Shown here: one piece after another, positions 3,755 to 13,713 of the stretch
Position numbering within the stretch: position 1 is the first letter of the stretch
Layout of the letters: the number at the start of each line of letters is the position of its first letter
NCBI GenBank assembly: GCA_020161215.1
Contig: JAIUOM010000036.1
Location: forward strand, 1-33,128
DNA length: 33,128 nt
Reading direction: 5' to 3'
Source of the DNA: Pseudomonadota bacterium
GTDB taxonomy: Bacteria; Pseudomonadota; Gammaproteobacteria; Burkholderiales; Burkholderiaceae_C
Translations under genes and position numbers: made by a program
Notes under the pieces: model-generated
What the model saw: the letters and a program-made list of their open reading frames with translations, nothing else
The model's database searches: none
What the model was told of the DNA's origin: nothing

Positions 3755-6102
<2,348 letters not shown>

Positions 6103-6104
6103 TT

Positions 6105-6147
6105 GATAGCTCTACTGCGTTTGTTGGCGCCGGCATCAGGCGGTTTT
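6105..6147 (+). repeat. interspersed repeat copy 1
   Basis: GATAGCT (6105-6111), 15 bases, GCGCCGGCA (6127-6135), then TCAGGCGGTTTT. It begins 3 bp after the pmdC stop. Same layout as the copies at 6440, 7854 and 28992. Confidence 0.8.
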
Positions 6148-6327
6148 CGCGGCTTGTTTTGGTGCCAATTGTGGGCCCCCCGTTGATTCGGGGCAGTCCG
6201 TCGACAGGGTCTGGCCTGCCCGCTTGAAGCCCGGCGGGCGCGGTTGGGCAGACGCAGCTCAAACGGCGCGCGTTGGTTGGATCTGGGTGGATACCAATCG
6301 GAGTGCACTCTCCACTCTCTAGAAACT

Positions 6328-6386
6328 CGTTCAGGCTGAGTCTGTCGAAGCCCCGCGCAGCGCTCGGGCAAGCTCAGCCAGAACGG
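6328..6386. repeat. imperfect inverted repeat in the gene-free stretch 6148-6439
   Basis: CGTTCAGGCTGAGTCTGTCGA (left arm about 6328-6353, continuing AAGCCC) faces GGGCAAGCTCAGCCAGAACG (6366-6385), giving an imperfect hairpin. The CTGAG/CTCAG core with a nearby TCGAAGCCC resembles a repetitive extragenic palindrome widespread in proteobacteria. I found no convincing gene in the rest of 6148-6439. Confidence 0.55.
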
Positions 6387-6439
6387 GTGGTGGTGGCTGA
6401 ATGCGGCTGGGCATCAGCCTGCAAAACCGCTCTATAAAC

Positions 6440-6481
6440 GATAGCTGGATATCGTTTTTTGGCGCCGGCATCAGGCTATTT
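6440..6481 (+). repeat. interspersed repeat copy 2
   Basis: GATAGCT (6440-6446), 15 bases, GCGCCGGCA (6462-6470), then TCAGGCTATTT. It lies immediately beyond the end of the decayed STAND fragment, just as copy 3 lies beyond the end of the intact STAND gene. Confidence 0.8.
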
Positions 6482-6685
6482 CCATTGCCTATCTACGGGC
6501 CGGTGGGTTGGGGCAAAAACGGCAGTCGCGCGCCCTGACCGGACCTGCCGCGGCGCTTCCCTGCTTTGCCAGCCCAGCAAACGCCCGGCCGTGCCGCTGA
6601 GGCCGATTGGCAGGCGATCAGGCGCTGGGTTTGGCGTCCGGAACGTTGCCGCGGTGGCCTGGGCAAGCCGCCAAGATGCGCCTAA
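6482..6685 (-). pseudogene. decayed 3' fragment of a STAND/WD40 gene related to the intact one downstream
   Basis: Translated on the minus strand, this stretch contains IGLSGTAGRLLGWQ. That aligns collinearly with the last WD40-like segment of the intact STAND protein (ISASGDAWRVLGWQ): nine of fifteen residues around GLLGWQ/RVLGWQ agree in the same codon phase. Nucleotide similarity continues on both sides: TGCCAGCCCA on the plus strand, then a GTTGGG/CGGCAG block near the end. A change of frame occurs between the LGWQ block and the terminal block, so it cannot be a functional end. The left end of the IS630 element at 6686 cuts it. Only about 200 bp of the ancestral gene can be recognised. 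It is probably a relic of a tandem paralogue. Confidence 0.6.
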
Positions 6686-6687
6686 TA

Positions 6688-6705
6688 CTAAATTGCGTTC
6701 AATGA
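6688..6705 (+). repeat. left terminal inverted repeat of the IS630 element
   Basis: 18 bp matching the right end at 14 positions in inverse orientation, directly abutting a TA target dinucleotide. Confidence 0.8.
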
Positions 6706-6717
6706 TATAGAAGAGAT

Positions 6718-7458
6718 TCATTTGAACCCAGTCATTGATTGAGTTCTAGATGGATTGGCTTCGAGTGCAGCAAGTCCGTTCGTGAGTACCGCTTCGACAG
6801 CGTCGAGATCGGCTAAGACATGGTTGGCAAAGCAGTCTTCACGAATGGCCTTCCACAGATGCTCGGCTGGATTGAGTTCGGGGCTGTACGCAGGCAGGAA
6901 CATCAGTCGCATGTTGGGCGGCACTTCAAGGTCCCCGGCGATGTGCCAGCCCGCCTGGTCCATGACCATGAGGATGAACTCGTCGGCGTGGCGCTGGGCC
7001 ACCTCAGCCAGGAACAGGCTCATCGCCTCGGCGTTCACCCAAGGCAGCACCAGAGAGTCGAGCACGCCGTCGTGCGGGCTGACGGCACTGAAGGCATAGA
7101 GGTACTGGCGCTGCAGCCGCGCACCAACCACCGGACGCACACCTCTTGGCGCCCAGCACCGCCGCGGCGTGCCCAGTAGCCCGAAGCGCCCCTCGTCCTG
7201 GAACATCAACCGCACGCGACGGCCCCGCTCAGCTTGGCGCCAGACCTCTTGGCGTACCGCGCGGCGGAGTTTTTTTAAAGGCGCCCTGCGCCGCAACATC
7301 CGCCTTCGGGTGCCTCGGGCGCGGCACGATCTTGCGCCAACCGTGCCGCTCAAGCAGCCGATACACCGTTGAGCGGGCCACTGCCTTGCCAGTGCGCTCT
7401 CGCAAGGCCTGCTCGACCTGTGCCACTGAGAGCATCGCGCCGGCCTGGGCGCGCTCAA
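6718..7458 (-). CDS. IS630-family transposase, catalytic DDE part (second frame)
   Basis: The useful coding runs from the A7 tract near 7265-7277 down to the stop at 6718. It holds the DDE catalytic core: MFQDEGRFGL (first Asp), LMVMDQAGWH (second Asp) and LPAYSPELNPAEHLW (Glu). The residues before RRRAPLKKLRRAV in this frame are out of phase with the N-terminal part and are probably not translated. It is offset +1 from the upstream frame, so an intact transposase needs a +1 (or -2) ribosomal shift or polymerase slippage on the A7 run. Otherwise the element is frameshifted. All three catalytic residues are present. Confidence 0.85.
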   Translation of the reverse strand: MSAPRPARCSQWHRSSRPCESALARQWPAQRCIGCLSGTVGARSCRARGTRRRMLRRRAPLKKLRRAVRQEVWRQAERGRRVRLMFQDEGRFGLLGTPRRCWAPRGVRPVVGARLQRQYLYAFSAVSPHDGVLDSLVLPWVNAEAMSLFLAEVAQRHADEFILMVMDQAGWHIAGDLEVPPNMRLMFLPAYSPELNPAEHLWKAIREDCFANHVLADLDAVEAVLTNGLAALEANPSRTQSMTGFK

Positions 7459-7753
7459 CGAACGGCGCCAGCAGTTCGAGCTCCTGCGCTGGCGTCAGGT
7501 GCTGGTGGTGCCTGCCGCCTCGTGCGCGCACCTCGAAGATCGCTTCGCCTTCCTTGGCCCAGCGCGAGTGGATCACATGCACGGTGGCTGTGGACCAACC
7601 GAGCAACTGTGCTATCTCAGCGGCCGAGCTGCCCAGCGTGGCTCGGATGAGCACGCACTGGATGCGCTGGTACTCCGAATGACTGCTCGCCTTCTTCAGC
7701 CTCTCGGCCAACCGCGCCACGGTGGCGGCGTCGCCCGTAATCAGACTCTTCAT
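7229..7753 (-). CDS. IS630-family transposase, N-terminal DNA-binding part (first frame)
   Basis: Starts at 7753 (MKSLITGDAATVARLAERLK) and encodes two helix-turn-helix units: about residues 20-60, including SAAEIAQLLGWSTATVHVIHSRW, and about residues 105-145, with LSVAQVEQALRERTGKAVAR. These are the terminal-repeat-binding domains of IS630/Tc1-type transposases. The reading frame leaves the homologous protein at the sequence TTTAAAAAAACTCC (plus-strand tract of seven T at 7270-7276) and runs on with a non-family tail to 7229. The catalytic domain continues in the other frame. Whether this is programmed recoding or a disabling mutation cannot be told from one copy. Confidence 0.85.
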   Translation of the reverse strand: MKSLITGDAATVARLAERLKKASSHSEYQRIQCVLIRATLGSSAAEIAQLLGWSTATVHVIHSRWAKEGEAIFEVRARGGRHHQHLTPAQELELLAPFVERAQAGAMLSVAQVEQALRERTGKAVARSTVYRLLERHGWRKIVPRPRHPKADVAAQGAFKKTPPRGTPRGLAPS

Positions 7754-7794
7754 CCACGACTCCTTGAAGTTCGTGAATTGACATGATATCTAAT

Positions 7795-7812
7795 TTATTG
7801 AATGCTATTTGG
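7795..7812 (-). repeat. right terminal inverted repeat of the IS630 element
   Basis: Reverse complement begins CCAAATAGCATTCAATAA, matching the left end at 14 of 18 bases, next to TA at 7813-7814. Confidence 0.8.
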
Positions 7813-7843
7813 TATAAAACCAGATTCAAGTGGGAAAAAATAA

Positions 7844-7896
7844 CTCCTATATTGATAGCTGTACAGCGTTTATTGACACCGACATAAGGCTATTTT
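7844..7896 (+). repeat. interspersed repeat copy 3
   Basis: CTCCTATATTGATAGCT (7844-7860), 15 bases, ACACCGACA (7876-7884), then TAAGGCTATTTT. It ends 2 bp before the stop codon of the STAND gene (7899-7901, read on the other strand). Confidence 0.8.
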
Positions 7897-7898
7897 TG

Positions 7899-10800
7899 CT
7901 AACTATTCACGGGCGACGTTGGGTAGGGCCCAAGCGGCAGGCGGGTCCACTGCCCAGGTGCGCTGGGGTGGTCCCACACCTGCCAGCCCAACACCCGCCA
8001 GGCATCGCCGCTGGCACTGATTAACCGGCCTTCGGGGTGCTCGGCTTCTGCGCCGGGAGGGGACCAGACGGCGTGGCCGGCGCAATCTGCCCAATCGCTC
8101 GCCCAGTGGCTGCGTAGGCAACGGCCTGAATCGGCGTCCCACAGGCGCAGGGTGCCGTCGCGGGAAGCGGAGGCGATGCGCTGGCCGTTGGGGGAAAAGG
8201 CGACGGCGTTGACCCAGCCCTGGTGGCCGGAGAAGGTGAGTAGGCACTCGCCGGAGCTGGCGTCCCACAGGCGTAGGGTGCTGTCGTCGGAAGCGGAGGC
8301 GATGCGCTGGCCGTTGGGGGAAAAGGCGACGGCAGTGATCCAGTCCTGGTGGCCGGAGAAGGTGAGTAGGCACTCGCCGGAGAGGGCGTCCCACAGGCGC
8401 AGGGTGTTGTCGTGGGAAGCGGAGGCGATGCGCTGGCCGTTGGGGGAAAAGGCGACGGCGGTGACCGGGAGCTGGTGGCCGGAGAAGGTGATCAGGCACT
8501 CGCCGGAGCTGGCGTCCCACAGGCGCAGGGTGCGGTCGTGGGAAGCGGAGGCGATGCGCTGGCCGTTGGGGGAAAAGGCGACGGCGGAGACCGAGTGCTG
8601 GCGGACGGAGAAGGTGATCAGGCACTCGCCGGAGCTGGCGCCCCACAGACACAGGGTGCTGTCGTCAGAGGCGGAGGCGATGCGCTGGCCGTTGGGGGAA
8701 AAGGCGACGGCGGTGACGGCGCCGCTGTGGCCCGACAGCCATTGCAGGCGACCGGATGGGGCGGATGGGGCGAGTGGGTGGGTGGGCGGCGCCAGCCAGG
8801 TGGCGGGGTCGGCGGGCTGAGCCACCGCGTCAGGCACCCCGGTGCAGCCCGAAAATTGCGCGCGGTAGGCCTGGGCGCTGCTCAATTGACTGCCGGCCAA
8901 GGCGCAATCGCGGAACACCGTGCCGGTGAGCTGAGCGTCTGCCCACCGACTGTCGCGCAAGCTGCAGGCCTGGAAAACCGCCTGGTCCAGCCGAGCGTGG
9001 CCCACGTCGGCGTCGTCCAGCCGCACCCGGCGCCAGCGCGTGCCGCGCAGGTCGGCGCCCTGCAGACGCACGCCCTGCATGGGCAGCAGGGGCGTGGTGT
9101 CGGTTTCGTCGCCTTCGCCAAAGGCCCAGTCCCGCAGCGCCGCGCCACGCAAATCAAACCCGGCCAGCAAGGGGCGTGGTGCAGACGGCGGGGCTTGCAG
9201 CGCGTAGCGCAGCAGCAACTCGGACGCCTGGGCGCGGTAGCTGGTGCGCCAGCGGTTGAGCACGGCAACCCACGCGGCCGGGTCGGTGTGTTCGCTCAGA
9301 ATTTGAGCCAGGAAATCCAGGGTTTCACCGCTGATGGACGGGCCGGCCCAGGCGGCGAAAAACGCGGCCTGGGTTTGGGACGGTGTGGACTCGGCTGCGG
9401 CTTGGCGCACTGCGGCAGCCAGATGTTCGGCGAGGAAAAACTCTTGCAAGGAGCTGTGTGCAAACTCAAAGCGGCTGCTGTCACCGTCGTCCACACGGCG
9501 TAAAAACGTGGCGTTACGCAGGTCTTGCTGCAGCAGAGCGCGTGGTATGTCTTGGTAGTCGGCGCTGGTGGATTGCGTGGTCAACCATTCGCCCAACCAG
9601 GTTTCCAGTGCTGGGGCATTCAGGCCGCGCAGATTTTTTTGCCACAGATGCGCGGCCAGGGCGGCTGCCAGGCGCTCTTTGTCTTCGGGTTGAAAGCTTT
9701 GCTTTTCCCTGTCGCGGATCAGCCACTCACGGGCCACTTCGCGGTACAGGGTGGCGCCGGTCACGGTGCGGCCTGCGGCTTGCCAGCGCTCGATTTGGGG
9801 CAAAAAACGGCTGATCAGCTTGAGGGTGAAGGGGCGCTGGCTTAACTCCGTCAGGTTGTGAATTGAGGCAATGCGGGCCATCAACTCGTTCACATCGGTG
9901 CTGGGCAAGGCCGCTTGCAGGTACTGGCGAATTTGCTCTTCGGTAAAAGGGCGCAGCACCACCGCGCGGTACTGGCGCGCGGGTTGCGCGCCACGGTGTT
10001 CGCCGGTCAGGTGGTTGCTTTGCTCGCGCAGGGTGCGAAAAAACTGCGAGCGGCATGACAGCAGCACCTTGGGCGGTGGGGCGGTGGCGCTGGGTGCGCG
10101 GCGCGCTTGTGCGTCGGGCAGTACGCGCAGCAGGTTGGCGGTGAAGGTGAGGCCTTGCTTGTCTTGTATGCGCGAGAGCACTTCGTCCAAGCCGTCAAAG
10201 ATCACCACCGCGCCTTGGTCCACGGTGGCCAGCACGTCGGCGTAGCTGGGGGCTTGCAGTCCGTCGGAGAGGTAACCGTTCTTCAGGCAGTCTTCCACGG
10301 TCTCTTGCAGGCCGGGCACGGCGCCGGGCGATACCGCACTGGCGGACACCAGGCGCTCGACTTTGCGCAGGTCGAAGTACAGCGCGGGCCGGGCCAATTC
10401 GCCCGCCGCGTGCTGCTGCCGCAGGTGCTCAAACACGCGCTGGCTGGTGGTGGTCTTGCCCATGCCGTATTCGCCCAGCAGGGCGTACAACGGTGGGCCA
10501 TTGGCGTCGGTGGCCCATTGCAGGATGTCATCGAAGGCGACCAGGCTCGCTTTCTCACTCTCCCCCAGTACCCCCCGGCCCCTTTTGTCTGCCAATTCAT
10601 CGAAAGAGTCGAGATTGATGTGGGTGGCGTGGTTGGGTTGGTAGGGGGGGCAATCGCCATCTCGCTCGGGTAGGCGGGTTCTGCGCATCAGTTCGCCGGC
10701 GGGGGTGAGGCGCGGGCGCGGTGTGTCAGGTGTGGGGGAAGCTGGCTCGGGGTAGACGGTGCCGCTGGCGATCAAGGCATGGACCACCTGGGCGGCGTTG

Positions 10801-11921
10801 TCGGCGGCCTGTTGTTGGCGGCGTTCTTTGTCTTGCGATTTGTTGCCGTCGCCCCAGTCGCAGATGGCTTTGACGACCAGCCAGTCAGTGCCGGTGCCAT
10901 CCAGCGCGGTCTGCACGCCGGCTGCTTCCATCTCGCCGCCGACGATGTCGTCTTGACCCGAAAGCTGACCCAGTTGATCGCGGTAGTCCCGGTGGTCCAC
11001 GAGCTTTTCACCGCTCAGGACGCCGCCAAAGTGCAACCTGGGCCAGGTGGTCTTGTCGATGCCGGCGTTGGCGCGTGTGTCGAGCTGTTCAAGCGCCCGT
11101 ACCCAGGCGCGAGAGGCAGGAGGGCGTGCGCCGCGCAAGGTGATTTTTCCGTCGTCGTGCACCTTGCCCAACTCGTAGTCGACGATGAACTTGGAGACCA
11201 GGACGTCCGCCAAATTTTGCTTCTTTTCGTTGATGCCGAAGGCAATGCCAACCGCCACGATGGCGCGGGGTTGAAGGGCTGCCTGAATGTCGGCGCTGGC
11301 GCGCTGCGATTCGCGGTTGCCCTGGCGACTGTGGTGATGGAATATCCGCATGTTGCCCAGGCTGCCCAGCTCGTCCAGCGAGATGGCGGGGCGGCCGGGC
11401 AAAGGGAGTTGTACGAGGCTGGGCTGCGCGCTCGGCTTGTTCCAGAACAGTTTGCGCACGGCTTCAAACTCGTGCTTGTTGAAGGTCAGCAGCACCACTT
11501 TGTGCTCTTGCACCAGAACGTCGGCCAGTTGGCCTTGGATGCGCTGCTCTGGCTCGATGGCGTTTAGGGTTTCGGTTTCGGCGAGCAGCAAGGGGGGCGG
11601 ACCAAGAAAACGCAGCTTGCGCCCGGCGGTTGTTCCTTGTTTAGAGCCTTCGAACTGGTGGCCGAGCACCAAGCCGCTTTCTTCGGCAGCACGGGCAAGG
11701 GCTTTGAGCAGGTTGCCCAGTTGCGCGCTGGCGGTCTTGGTGTTGTCGGTGGCGGGGAAAAGCTGGGTATGCAGCTGTTGCACGGGTGCGGAGCCGTCTT
11801 CCCCAATCAGCTCCAGCAGTTGTTCGGCCAGGCGACGCATTCCTGCCGACAAACGCGGCATCAACCGGTGAAATGCCGTGTGGAGATGGGTGCGAGACAG
11901 TGGATGGTTGGCATTGGTCAT
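7899..11921 (-). CDS. STAND NTPase: PNP-like domain, NACHT, pentapeptide repeats and WD40 repeats
   Basis: A 1340-residue multidomain protein. Residue numbers count from an in-frame ATG four codons upstream (11933). About 15-115: helical, possibly winged-helix domain. About 143-393: nucleoside-phosphorylase/nucleosidase fold with VAVGIAFGI (226-234), GEMEAAG (333-339) and ICDWGDG (357-363). About 480-840: NACHT-type STAND NTPase with Walker A GEYGMGKT (487-494), Walker B VVIFDGLDE (576-584), LLSCRSQFF, and the closing FEFAHSSLQEFFLAEHL. About 923-1030: pentapeptide-like A(D/N)LxG repeats. 1068-1277: five WD40 units, then a degenerate sixth. NACHT proteins with C-terminal repeats and N-terminal effectors act in bacterial anti-phage defence. 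PNP-type effectors in such systems can hydrolyse ATP or other nucleotides. An immune role is inferred. No partner gene is apparent. Confidence 0.88.
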   Translation of the reverse strand: MTNANHPLSRTHLHTAFHRLMPRLSAGMRRLAEQLLELIGEDGSAPVQQLHTQLFPATDNTKTASAQLGNLLKALARAAEESGLVLGHQFEGSKQGTTAGRKLRFLGPPPLLLAETETLNAIEPEQRIQGQLADVLVQEHKVVLLTFNKHEFEAVRKLFWNKPSAQPSLVQLPLPGRPAISLDELGSLGNMRIFHHHSRQGNRESQRASADIQAALQPRAIVAVGIAFGINEKKQNLADVLVSKFIVDYELGKVHDDGKITLRGARPPASRAWVRALEQLDTRANAGIDKTTWPRLHFGGVLSGEKLVDHRDYRDQLGQLSGQDDIVGGEMEAAGVQTALDGTGTDWLVVKAICDWGDGNKSQDKERRQQQAADNAAQVVHALIASGTVYPEPASPTPDTPRPRLTPAGELMRRTRLPERDGDCPPYQPNHATHINLDSFDELADKRGRGVLGESEKASLVAFDDILQWATDANGPPLYALLGEYGMGKTTTSQRVFEHLRQQHAAGELARPALYFDLRKVERLVSASAVSPGAVPGLQETVEDCLKNGYLSDGLQAPSYADVLATVDQGAVVIFDGLDEVLSRIQDKQGLTFTANLLRVLPDAQARRAPSATAPPPKVLLSCRSQFFRTLREQSNHLTGEHRGAQPARQYRAVVLRPFTEEQIRQYLQAALPSTDVNELMARIASIHNLTELSQRPFTLKLISRFLPQIERWQAAGRTVTGATLYREVAREWLIRDREKQSFQPEDKERLAAALAAHLWQKNLRGLNAPALETWLGEWLTTQSTSADYQDIPRALLQQDLRNATFLRRVDDGDSSRFEFAHSSLQEFFLAEHLAAAVRQAAAESTPSQTQAAFFAAWAGPSISGETLDFLAQILSEHTDPAAWVAVLNRWRTSYRAQASELLLRYALQAPPSAPRPLLAGFDLRGAALRDWAFGEGDETDTTPLLPMQGVRLQGADLRGTRWRRVRLDDADVGHARLDQAVFQACSLRDSRWADAQLTGTVFRDCALAGSQLSSAQAYRAQFSGCTGVPDAVAQPADPATWLAPPTHPLAPSAPSGRLQWLSGHSGAVTAVAFSPNGQRIASASDDSTLCLWGASSGECLITFSVRQHSVSAVAFSPNGQRIASASHDRTLRLWDASSGECLITFSGHQLPVTAVAFSPNGQRIASASHDNTLRLWDALSGECLLTFSGHQDWITAVAFSPNGQRIASASDDSTLRLWDASSGECLLTFSGHQGWVNAVAFSPNGQRIASASRDGTLRLWDADSGRCLRSHWASDWADCAGHAVWSPPGAEAEHPEGRLISASGDAWRVLGWQVWDHPSAPGQWTRLPLGPYPTSPVNS
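8103..8732 (-). repeat. five tandem 126-bp WD40-coding repeats, nearly identical
   Basis: A plus-strand core beginning AAGCGGAGGCGATGCGCTGG recurs every 126 bp (for example at 8165 and 8291). Each unit encodes 42 residues. Residues 8-22 of the blade (AVAFSPNGQRIASAS) are identical in all five. Differences cluster at blade residues 3-7 and 23-25. Blade 2 has VRQ in place of the usual GHQ, and blade 1 has WG in place of WD. Confidence 0.95.
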
Positions 11922-11927
11922 GTCAAT

Positions 11928-11931
11928 CTCC
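11928..11931 (-). promoter_or_regulatory. ribosome binding site that decides the STAND start
   Basis: On the minus strand GGAG stands six bases before the ATG at 11919-11921 (protein beginning MTNANHPL). The earlier in-frame ATG at 11931-11933 overlaps this site and has no purine-rich site of its own, so the internal ATG is the likelier start. Confidence 0.6.
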
Positions 11932-11945
11932 ATTTGGAGAAATTT

Positions 11946-11984
11946 TGTATTGATTGTATTGAATATCTTGTATTGGTTGTATTG
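11946..11984 (-). promoter_or_regulatory. four CAATACA direct repeats upstream of the STAND gene
   Basis: CAATACA on the minus strand (TGTATTG on the plus strand) occurs at 11946-11952, 11955-11961, 11969-11975 and 11978-11984. Start-to-start spacing is 9, 14 and 9 bp, so two pairs repeat 23 bp apart. It lies 25-63 bp upstream of the probable start codon, where an operator or activator site would sit. The surrounding AT-rich stretch (11935-12030) would also hold the promoter; I saw no clean -35/-10 pair. Confidence 0.5.
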
Positions 11985-12035
11985 AAATTTTCGAGAATTT
12001 TCATGTAGTTAGTTATATTGGTGTAACCATGCGAG

Positions 12036-12428
12036 GTTGCCGCTGAGCGTTCGCGTCGGGGGGCGAATTTTCAGTTGCTGTCGTTGCTGCCCGATTCGCG
12101 CTTTCAAATCGCTTTGAGCGTGGCGCTGTACACCGAATGGCAGGATGTGATGAGTCGGTCCGAGCATTTGCCGCCGGGTATGGGGCCGGACGATGCGCGA
12201 CCGTTTCTTCGCTACCTGGCGTCCTTGGCCCATTTGCAGGCCGTGCACTATCTGTGGCGGCCGTTTCTTCGCGATCCGGACGACGACATGGTGCTGGAAT
12301 GCGTTGTGGCGTCGGGCAGTCGCTACCTGGTGACGCACAAGCTGCGCGATTTTCAAAAAATTACCGAGCTGGGGGTGCAACCGGTGACCTCCGCCGAGTT
12401 CCTTCAATTGTTGAGGAGTGAGCCATGA
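12036..12428 (+). pseudogene. PIN-domain toxin (VapC-like, PIN_3 type) lacking its N-terminus
   Basis: The frame encodes VAAERSRRGANFQLLSLLPD, then SVALYTEWQDVM, DPDDDMVLECVVASGSRYLVTH and KLRDFQKITELGVQPVTSAEF. These match the body of PIN-domain RNase toxins. Family members begin with about ten further residues including the DTN motif, whose Asp is a metal ligand. Here those codons are missing: the frame runs into TAA at 12024-12026, and the only nearby ATG (12029) is in another frame. Translation could begin only at a TTG (12075) inside the domain, so the nuclease is probably inactive. The stop overlaps the antitoxin start by 4 bp. The damaged end faces the STAND gene's upstream region, as if a rearrangement removed it. 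Confidence 0.75.
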
Positions 12429-12658
12429 CCGCTCTGACGGTTCGCCTGCCCCATTCTTTGCACGCCAAGACTCGTGAATTGGCGGCGCGTGATGGCGTTT
12501 CAGTGAATCAATTCATTGCCAGTGCCGCCGGGGAAAAGCTGGCGTCGGTGTTGACGGTGGACTATTTGCGCCAAGAGGCGAAGCTGGGCCTGCGCGAGGA
12601 CTTTGACCGGTTCATGCGTGCGGTGCCGGATCAACCGGACGAGGCTGATCGAGGCTGA
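12425..12658 (+). CDS. ribbon-helix-helix antitoxin (HicB/CopG-like)
   Basis: A 77-residue protein beginning MTALTVRLPHSLHAKTRELA, with the typical ribbon-helix-helix order: a short strand (TVRLP), helix 1 (SLHAKTRELAARDG), a turn, and helix 2 (SVNQFIASAAGEKLA). Proteins with TVRLP and a following VSVNQFI are DNA-binding antitoxins that autorepress toxin-antitoxin operons, with a C-terminal tail that neutralises the toxin. Its ATG overlaps the PIN toxin stop (ATGA), so the two form one operon with the toxin first, the reverse of the more common order. It appears intact although its toxin partner is truncated. Its tail (residues 50-77) is acidic and probably flexible. Confidence 0.8.
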   Translation: MTALTVRLPHSLHAKTRELAARDGVSVNQFIASAAGEKLASVLTVDYLRQEAKLGLREDFDRFMRAVPDQPDEADRG

Positions 12659-12684
12659 TGCCCCTCACGTGCGAATATCGCCTG

Positions 12685-13713
12685 ATGCAACAACGTCAAC
12701 TTGGCCCCTTTACCGTCAGCCCCATTGGCCTGGGCTGCATGAACATCTGCCACGCTTACGGCACGCCACCGCCGCGTGAGCAGGCCGAGCGGCTACTGCT
12801 GGCCGCGCTGGATGCCGGGGTGACGCATTTCGACACGGCGGCGCTGTACGGCTTCGGGGTCAGCGAAGCGCTGGTCGGGCAGGTGCTGGCGCCGCACCGC
12901 CAGCGCTTCACCCTGGCCAGCAAGTGCGGCATGACGGTGGAAGCCGGCGACGGTACGGTCAAGCCGACCCGGGTCATCGACGGCCGTCCTGGGGCGCTGC
13001 GCGCGACCTGCGAGGGTTCGCTCCGGCGCCTGCGTACCGATGTGATCGATCTGTACTACCTGCACCGTTGGGACAAACAGGTGCCCATCGAGGACAGCGT
13101 GGGTGCGCTCGGCGATCTGGTGCGTGCCGGCAAGATTCGCAGCATTGGTCTGTCGGAGGTGTCCGCCGCCACCTTGCGCCGTGCGCACGCGGTGCACCCG
13201 GTTGCGGCGCTGCAGACCGAATATTCGCTGTGGACGCGCAATCCCGAGATCGCCGTGCTGCGCACCTGCCGTGATCTGGGCGTCAGCTTCGTCGCCTTCA
13301 GCCCGGTGGCACGGGGTTTTTTGGCCGGTGCGCTGCCCGATCTGGGCGCCTTGGCCGCCCTGGCCGAAAAGGACATTCGTCGGCCGATGCCGCGCTTCGC
13401 CTCCGAGCACTTCACGCGCAATTTGCCGCTGCTGAGCAGTTTTCAGGCCATCGCCACCGAAGTCGGATGTACCCCGGCGCAATTGGCCCTGGCCTGGTTG
13501 CTGCACCAGGGCCAGGACATTCTGCCGATACCTGGCACGCGCTCGGTGGAGCACCTGCGCGAGAACTTGGGTGCGGCCGAGGTGCGCTTGTCGGCCGACC
13601 TGCTGGCACGGCTGGACGCGTTGATCAATACCAACACCGTGAGCGGGCACCGCTACGCGGAGCAGGCCCGGCGAGAGGTGGATACCGAAGACATTGCGGA
13701 ATCGGCACGCTGA
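12685..13713 (+). CDS. aldo/keto reductase family protein
   Basis: A 342-residue (beta/alpha)8 NADPH-dependent oxidoreductase. The catalytic tetrad is visible: Asp50 in HFDTAALYG, Tyr55, Lys80 in LASKCG and His127 in YYLHRWD. The cofactor-binding C-terminal part includes LPIPGTRSVEHLRENLGA. The pattern IGLGCMNICHAYG and the KIRSIGLSEVS segment place it near YajO/AKR13-type reductases; the physiological substrate is unknown. The ATG at 12685 gives the usual MQQRQLG start; a frame opening at 12658, overlapping the antitoxin stop, would add nine residues of no family likeness. Neither ATG has a strong ribosome site. Confidence 0.9.
   Translation: MQQRQLGPFTVSPIGLGCMNICHAYGTPPPREQAERLLLAALDAGVTHFDTAALYGFGVSEALVGQVLAPHRQRFTLASKCGMTVEAGDGTVKPTRVIDGRPGALRATCEGSLRRLRTDVIDLYYLHRWDKQVPIEDSVGALGDLVRAGKIRSIGLSEVSAATLRRAHAVHPVAALQTEYSLWTRNPEIAVLRTCRDLGVSFVAFSPVARGFLAGALPDLGALAALAEKDIRRPMPRFASEHFTRNLPLLSSFQAIATEVGCTPAQLALAWLLHQGQDILPIPGTRSVEHLRENLGAAEVRLSADLLARLDALINTNTVSGHRYAEQARREVDTEDIAESAR

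Follow-up and report, generated by a model that had tools for sequence, protein, structure and literature searches.

Gene and domain architecture

The window analysed here is a stretch of 33,128 nucleotides from a bacterium of the Burkholderiales (assembly GCA_020161215.1, contig JAIUOM010000036.1), and the subject of this report is a single gene on its minus strand. The gene product is probably a bacterial NLR encoded in one gene and related to the immune receptors of animals and fungi, in which a rapidly changing WD40 sensor would act through a NACHT switch on a nucleosidase effector that stops the infected cell. The open reading frame (ORF) is unbroken from 7899 to 11933, with 1344 codons counted from the first ATG. 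A start at 11921 (M5) is preferred over the alternative at 11933 because GGAG lies six bases upstream of its ATG. The gene and its domains are as follows.

7899..11921, minus strand: whole gene, 1340 amino acids (aa) from the preferred start, stop codon within the bounds
11586..11882, minus strand: NNH6, NACHT N-terminal helical domain 6 (Pfam PF22737, E 3e-19)
10764..11504, minus strand: effector slot, predicted MTAN-type nucleosidase domain of the PNP superfamily (Pfam PF01048; bounds from our own hidden Markov model, HMM)
9912..10529, minus strand: NACHT NTPase (Pfam PF05729, E 6e-9; bounds from our own HMM)
10452-10475, minus strand: Walker A motif, GEYGMGKT (motif position)
10182-10208, minus strand: Walker B motif, VVIFDGLDE (motif position)
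9378..9911, minus strand: conserved region C-terminal of NACHT, putatively helical (our own HMM and family alignment)
8883..9077, minus strand: pentapeptide repeats (Pfam PF00805 and PF13599)
8103..8732, minus strand: five WD40 repeats of 42 aa each (Pfam WD40; repeat alignment)
7902..8102, minus strand: divergent blade-like C-terminal cap (GRLISASGDAWRVLGWQVWD), read from the sequence

Pfam searches with pieces of the protein identified NNH6 (E 3e-19), PNP_UDP_1 (E 2.7e-12), NACHT (E 6e-9), the PF00805 Pentapeptide family (E 1.3e-10 to 1.2e-12) and five stretches of WD40 (E 1e-67), each over its curated cut-off. A preliminary description of the gene, made from the letters alone, had placed a PNP-like domain, a NACHT NTPase, pentapeptide-like repeats and WD40 repeats on one protein; all four are borne out, and the first 115 residues, which it had left open, are now assigned to NNH6. 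The motifs GEMEAAG, ICDWGDG, GEYGMGKT and VVIFDGLDE occupy residues 333-339, 357-363, 487-494 and 576-584, respectively (numbered from the first methionine). Walker A and the DGLDE of Walker B are invariant in the seven aligned family sequences (7/7), and the central domain has both the Walker A and the Walker B motif of a STAND NACHT NTPase. N-terminal effector, central STAND domain and C-terminal repeat sensor lie on one chain in the tripartite layout of NLR-like proteins, which agrees with the NLR-like STAND architecture proposed earlier. The NNH6 match is the only one in the host genome at E 0.01. A loose motif of the C-terminal cap is present in 29/29 family members with uncut arrays, a count for which the chance level was not computed. 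Neither a HET effector domain nor a SLOG domain was found by Pfam on the pieces of the window protein, no match was found by Rfam, and the promoter and terminator scan yielded about as much as shuffled sequence.

A predicted nucleosidase-type effector

The enzymatic domain had been described as a nucleoside phosphorylase or nucleosidase; its membership of the PNP superfamily stands, and it proves closer to the nucleosidases than to the phosphorylases. When a profile of 37 NNH6-PNP sequences was compared with the PDB, methylthioadenosine/S-adenosylhomocysteine (MTA/SAH) nucleosidases (MTAN) were the best matches (E 8.9e-22), and DeoD phosphorylases were reached only at E about 2e-6. Residues E151, M331, E332 and D355 (numbered from M5) are invariant in 37/37 aligned sequences, the window protein included, and in the profile-PDB alignment M331, E332 and D355 align with the E-M-E and S-D motifs of MTAN. 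The relation to MTA/SAH nucleosidases and the E-M-E and S/C-D motifs are together those of an MTAN-type nucleosidase, and the PNP domain can be placed, as judged from these alignments, on the nucleosidase side of the superfamily. E151 is presumably the counterpart of E12 of E. coli MTAN, whose functional residues and their roles we take to be those of E12, E174 and D197. The putative catalytic set E151, E332 and D355 is kept in 37/37 of the aligned sequences. The PADLOC model for PN-superfamily effectors also matches the window protein (E 7e-16), so that, as had been suggested, it has a PNP-superfamily effector of the type used in defence proteins such as Cap17 and Detocs. By analogy with the ATP nucleosidases of those systems (PMC10952713, Table 1; meeting report PMC9966839), the substrate might be guessed to be ATP or dATP.

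Relatives were collected by a scan of genome contigs with a seven-sequence alignment, with a yield of 225 pattern hits and 177 relatives; only the 80 best were retained, more distant ones going uncounted. As found with our own HMMs, NNH6 and PNP occur together in 36/80 loci and PNP and NACHT in 39/80. A further 23 loci match by PNP alone, and ten of these were scanned for other domains. NACHT with an FGE-sulfatase domain was found in two, NB-ARC/AAA with TPR in two, COR or Roc-COR in two and TPR in one; in the remaining three no other domain was detected at E 1e-5.

In every one of the 48 members tested, window included, the pentapeptide repeats sit between the NACHT C-terminal region and the WD40 array, with PF13599 in 48/48 and PF00805 in 47/48 at E 0.01. 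The combination of pentapeptide and WD40 repeats on one NACHT protein, thought at first to be non-standard, is thus the shared layout of the family and was rejected as an oddity of the window protein; the proposed examination of homologues for the same domain order was answered by this count and by the 36/80 loci with NNH6 and PNP. Several proteobacterial classes are represented among the best 80 relatives, as are the Actinomycetota. Full support on the NACHT tree joins an actinomycete member (L056) as sister to one from Burkholderiales (L045); both are metagenome-assembled genomes, and the pairing suggests either transfer between phyla or a binning error.

Exchange of the effector between nucleosidase and TIR

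NNH6 and NACHT occur without PNP in 16/80 loci. The slot between them was identified as Pfam TIR_2 in 10/10 of the PNP-less loci scanned, in eight of them over the cut-off, and L178 is a TIR member beyond these ten. An HMM built from the eight over-cut-off slots finds the same module in L065, L069, L071, L075, L078 and L079, which adds five slots to those identified by Pfam. It fails to match L061, where the Pfam TIR match is sub-threshold (E 1.2e-4) and the TIR would then differ in kind, and L059, a member in which NNH6 is joined to NACHT by a link of only 94 residues with no effector domain seen. L061 is sister to the PNP member L048 on the NACHT tree (support 100/100). The tree holds three effector changes, two of them forced by well-supported branches; the count stays at three when only Pfam-supported TIR is admitted and is two with only over-cut-off TIR. 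A count of five was dropped, as it had labelled L055 (a split frame) and L059 (an empty slot) as TIR.

PNP-type nucleosidases and TIR domains alike cleave N-glycosidic bonds in nucleotides or nucleosides, in keeping with a slot that takes nucleotide-depleting effectors. The domain matches point to an interchangeable nucleotide-attacking effector between NNH6 and NACHT, and the exchange of PNP and TIR suggests that one effector can replace another with the NACHT, pentapeptide and WD40 parts left in place.

Five loci (L205, L206, L208, L209 and L210) are relatives in the NACHT part with a different N-terminal module; L206 and L208 have sub-threshold NNH6 matches, and L208 a sub-threshold EAL match. 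An EAL-like domain in the L208 slot is weak as a candidate (26 bits against a cut-off of 31.3) and was not found in L206 or L209.

Hypervariable sites of the WD40 sensor

The WD40 repeats of the window protein are pairwise identical at 96-115 of 126 bases (76-91% at the DNA level), with a median of 0.861, a high internal identity resembling that of the fungal HNWD receptors, whose repeats exceed 80% (PMC12222747). In the Podospora HNWD genes, positions of high dN/dS have been reported at 10, 11, 12, 14, 30, 32 and 39 of the repeat (PMC12222747). With GH at 8-9 in that numbering and at 1, 2 here, these correspond to positions 3, 4, 5, 7, 23, 25 and 32, the register between fungal and bacterial numbering being taken from the repeat motif. 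The sites were fixed before the result of the count was seen, the window's own repeats having already been seen. Omega compares nonsynonymous difference (pN) at the HNWD-equivalent sites with synonymous difference (pS) of all codons, with bootstrap; arrays with fewer than four ungapped 42-aa repeats were dropped, and the statistic for 18 genes requires a median nucleotide identity of at least 0.78.

Across these 18 genes, with PNP or TIR, the most nonsynonymous difference occurs at positions 5, 7, 23, 4, 3 and 25 of 42. All six belong to the seven HNWD-equivalent sites, and the seventh (HNWD 39) ranks ninth; the chance of six of six top positions falling within a set of seven of 42 is 1.3e-6. 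This positional coincidence alone proves little, since the exposed face of any WD40 propeller varies. pN at the sites is greater than pS in 17/18 high-identity family genes, with bootstrap of at least 0.95 in 13/18; the 18 are not all independent, L031/L049 and L044/L054 being close orthologues. The window array has omega 4.1 at the hypervariable sites and 0.69 elsewhere, so that it has both the variable codons at HNWD sites and the nonsynonymous excess. Below 0.78 identity lie 10 of the 28 arrays; pN is greater than pS in four of them and not in the other six, whose pS is 0.67-0.81. The WD40 sensor of this family shows excess nonsynonymous change at the HNWD-equivalent sites.

Close orthologues were compared after matching their repeats by the order-preserving pairing most favourable to similarity, in draft assemblies. 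Core aa identity is 90.5% for L024/L025, 92.6% for L031/L049 and 96.4% for L044/L054, while the hypervariable residues agree at 24%, 50% and 57%, and the other repeat residues at 80%, 82% and 83%, respectively. Repeats are as close or closer to a repeat of their own gene in 14/14 cases for L024, 4/4 for L031 and 10/13 for L044. In a fourth and more distant pair, L044/L058, the core agrees at 74.7%, the hypervariable residues at 16%, and 13/13 repeats are as close or closer to one of their own gene. Cores that agree, hypervariable residues that differ and repeats that resemble those of the same gene are the mark of arrays evolving in concert, with the likely recognition sites changing fast.

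Genomic setting and distribution

The gene lies in an insert whose features are as follows.

6112..12690, no strand: insert, approximate bounds (comparison with nine congeners without the gene)
6718..7753, minus strand: transposase, which we take to be IS630-type, as two overlapping ORFs downstream of the gene (Pfam DDE_3 and HTH families)
12075..12655, plus strand: PIN_3 toxin remnant followed by a HicB-like antitoxin gene (Pfam)

Similarity to the congeners without the gene breaks off at 6090-6124 (the point varies among genomes) and picks up again at 12684-12715. On the left is a GFO/IDH/MocA oxidoreductase gene, found in thirteen congeners at E 1e-160 or better, and on the right an aldo-keto reductase gene, present on the same contig within 2 kb in nine of the thirteen. 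In the window, 6.6 kb separate the flanking genes and comprise the IS630-type element, the gene and the PIN/HicB-like pair; in seven of the nine congeners the gap is about 60-190 bp, and it reaches 0.5 kb in L153 and 1.7 kb in L152. As L152 and L153 have other DNA at the same chromosomal site, it may be an insertion hotspot. The PIN match of the toxin remnant begins only at position 26 of the 115-position profile, with its N-terminal part unmatched. An island with an insertion sequence and a broken toxin-antitoxin pair had been described here, and the transposase ORFs, the truncated PIN match and the strain-specific insert agree with that description. The NNH6-PNP part is absent from 28/28 other congeners searched, and NNH6 is over its cut-off in 8/299 genomes of the wider taxonomic family. 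Because of this distribution and the insert comparison, the gene is best regarded as an accessory gene at a variable site.

Neighbouring genes were examined in 35 homologue loci (102 of the 194 neighbours called). No Pfam family recurs in more than three, two are phage-type integrases, and two match NNH6, the latter probably being N-terminal pieces of split family genes. The PADLOC models that match neighbours include PD-T4-6, mads, DpdE, ZorD and DrmD.

Relation to known systems

The closest likeness is to the fungal HNWD proteins (Podospora het-d, het-e and het-r), which share the effector-NACHT-WD40 order, 42-aa repeats of high internal identity, concerted evolution and variable residues at the same repeat positions (PMC12222747). 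The HNWD effector is a HET domain, related to TIR, where the window protein has a nucleosidase, and neither NNH6 nor pentapeptide repeats are mentioned for HNWD in the available text of that paper. The window protein would work like an HNWD receptor yet is not classed as one, having PNP in place of HET. Fungal PNP_UDP-NACHT-WD40 NLRs have an effector of the same superfamily, the same NTPase and the same repeat type, and differ in that the word 'Pentapeptide' appears nowhere in PMC4986451.

Among bacterial systems, the bNACHT antiphage proteins likewise have NACHT in a tripartite protein; as compared by description, they have a PD-(D/E)XK nuclease with NCH1, or an SNaCT region without discernible effector (PMC12169576). 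Cap17 and Detocs share a PNP-superfamily effector in defence, listed for NLR-like systems (PMC10952713); they differ in the SLOG domain, not found in the window protein, for which cleavage of ATP is putative. The WRAP and other repetitive WD40 STAND proteins of bacteria have recently amplified near-identical blades and are suspected of a role in innate immunity, with TIR and caspase effectors, again as compared by description (PMC9218822). Published precedents exist for PNP effectors of NLR-like systems, for antiphage NACHT proteins of bacteria, for PNP_UDP-NACHT-WD40 proteins in fungi and for STAND proteins with repetitive WD40 arrays, as far as the consulted portions of these sources go. In the open-access literature, a scope outside which most subscription papers lie, no paper was found on a bacterial NNH6-PNP-NACHT-pentapeptide-WD40 family, and none on diversifying selection at these WD40 sites in bacteria. 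A separate arrangement was seen on plasmid pHALHY01 of Haliscomenobacter hydrossis (L221), where a caspase-family gene and two NACHT genes lie close together in the same direction, one frame having 14 ungapped WD40 repeats.

Proposed mechanism and alternative explanations

The single-gene NLR reading draws direct support from the domain content, the conserved catalytic-type residues, the TIR exchange, the insertion at a variable site, the nonsynonymous excess and the concerted evolution. To these are added, as proposals, autoinhibition, oligomerisation, the substrate, the ligand, the surface position of the variable residues and the antiphage role. At rest, the protein would be held in an inactive state by its NACHT NTPase. 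The WD40 array at the C-terminus, which the pentapeptide repeats set apart, would bind a ligand, and its binding surface would change fast as near-identical repeats recombine and diversifying selection acts. Contact with the ligand would lead to nucleotide exchange in NACHT and oligomerisation, by which the N-terminal nucleosidase would be switched on. The nucleosidase would then cleave a purine nucleotide or nucleoside at its N-glycosidic bond, with ATP or dATP the favoured guess, and stop the infected cell.

Several observations weigh against this reading. One gene of the 18, L024 of the isolate Undibacterium pigrum DSM 19792, has omega 0.90 and is the sole exception to the excess; five of the 18 fall below 0.95 bootstrap, and L163 has omega 0.99. 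Outside the family, omega is 0.88 in the NACHT relative L206, whose identity of 0.76 falls just short of the limit, and 0.31 in L210 (identity 0.68); synonymous change is abundant in both. At E 1e-10 or better, none of the PADLOC families matched more than two of the 102 neighbours, so the defence-island argument is weak and the proximity to defence genes that the preliminary description had proposed to count gave little signal. No close copy was found in the scans of plasmids and phages: 24 plasmid records were recovered, none covering 80% of the query, and the 20 matches listed are to PNP or NACHT parts only; the phage scan found nothing; and a scan of IMG/VR gave two loci matching in the PNP part only. 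The window array itself is short, its length divided by 42 being 6.6, less than in 20/28 other uncut members.

This shortness bears on a rival explanation, namely that the allele in the window has decayed or been wrongly assembled and has too few blades to function, which is a serious possibility if not quite the probable one. The array has 5+1 blades, where array length divided by 42 gives 14-16 in 13/29 uncut members; ungapped repeats number 14 in L178 (three-contig genome) and 12 in L020 (one-contig genome). HNWD proteins have been modelled as two seven-blade propellers, and Illumina assemblies fail to recover such arrays (PMC12222747). The source contig is one of 250 in the host assembly, and the repeat number of 5+1 may be an assembly artefact. 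In L162/L163 one family gene is apparently split across contigs inside its array, L163 probably being the C-terminal piece of the L033/L162 gene. The window frame, however, is unbroken and retains every motif, and short arrays exist elsewhere, including in the isolate draft L031.

The hypervariability could also reflect relaxed constraint on exposed WD40 residues without selection for change, which is unlikely. In other WD40 arrays, too, these positions rank with the more variable, and only three high-identity arrays without NACHT were available for comparison. These three (L222 and two of L212, where no Pfam NACHT was found in a scan for NACHT only) have omega of 1.29, 1.04 and 1.12, not significantly raised at bootstrap 0.92, 0.55 and 0.66, whereas the synonymous level is exceeded in 17/18 family genes and in 7/7 high-identity arrays on further NACHT proteins (omega 1.76-2.70, bootstrap 1.00 in each). 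The seven are those of L154, two of L155, L205, L208, L209 and the TIR member L178. The L154 and two L155 arrays, all from genome G328 (omega 1.83, 2.20 and 2.35), have NACHT domains over the Pfam cut-off that give no match to the window family's own NACHT HMM; belonging to another NACHT family, they led to rejection of the idea that hypervariability is specific to the window family. Arrays below 0.78 identity outside the family have omega from 0.25 to 1.54, among them L218 (a kinase) at 1.19, L219 at 1.44 and L211 at 1.54. The pattern follows recently amplified arrays on NACHT receptors and not the window family alone, as far as these few controls go. The three G328 genes are paralogues within about 25 kb (contig 14, about 76-100 kb), each with 14-19 near-identical WD40 repeats that are hypervariable at the same sites, and look like a tandem sensor cluster.

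Equally improbable is a role in self/non-self (kin) discrimination in place of phage defence, in which the array would sense variants of a bacterial protein and the nucleosidase would kill on mismatch. The effector-NACHT-repetitive-WD40 layout and the hypervariable positions are those of HNWD, which recognise HET-C variants, and PNP_UDP-NACHT-WD40 proteins are known from fungi (PMC4986451). Bacteria, however, have no fusion of cytoplasm, so that a route for the ligand is missing, and no conserved partner gene was seen, no Pfam family occurring in more than three of the 102 neighbours. The bNACHT proteins so far described act against phage, as far as the available text of PMC12169576 goes. That the protein is a housekeeping or stress sensor with a nucleosidase for metabolic signalling (e.g., MTA/SAH turnover), as its nearest solved relatives, the MTA/SAH nucleosidases, might suggest, is very improbable in view of its patchy distribution (absent from 28/28 congeners, NNH6 in 8/299 family genomes), the replacement of PNP by TIR in relatives and the excess nonsynonymous change at the WD40 sites.

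A wider proposal extends the single-gene NLR reading and is offered tentatively, at only just short of an even chance: that bacteria carry anticipatory receptors of the HNWD type, as a widespread NLR family with a plug-in nucleotide-attacking effector and a blade-shuffled WD40 sensor under diversifying selection at the residues of the fungal receptors. The plug-in effectors would be a nucleosidase, apparently two kinds of TIR and perhaps an EAL-like domain, and the sensor, probably a double propeller, would be re-sorted by recombination between 126-bp blades. The question addressed is what bacterial repeat-sensor NLRs recognise and how they track changing targets. The residues probably used in recognition show up in natural sequence as a few codons that outpace synonymous sites in near-identical repeats, and close natural orthologues differ mostly at these hypervariable codons, which makes ligand specificity testable. 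This links bacterial NLRs with the fungal receptors in which such evolution is known, and if the HNWD-type proposal is true, germline turnover of sensors by blade shuffling would be a general immune strategy of bacteria.

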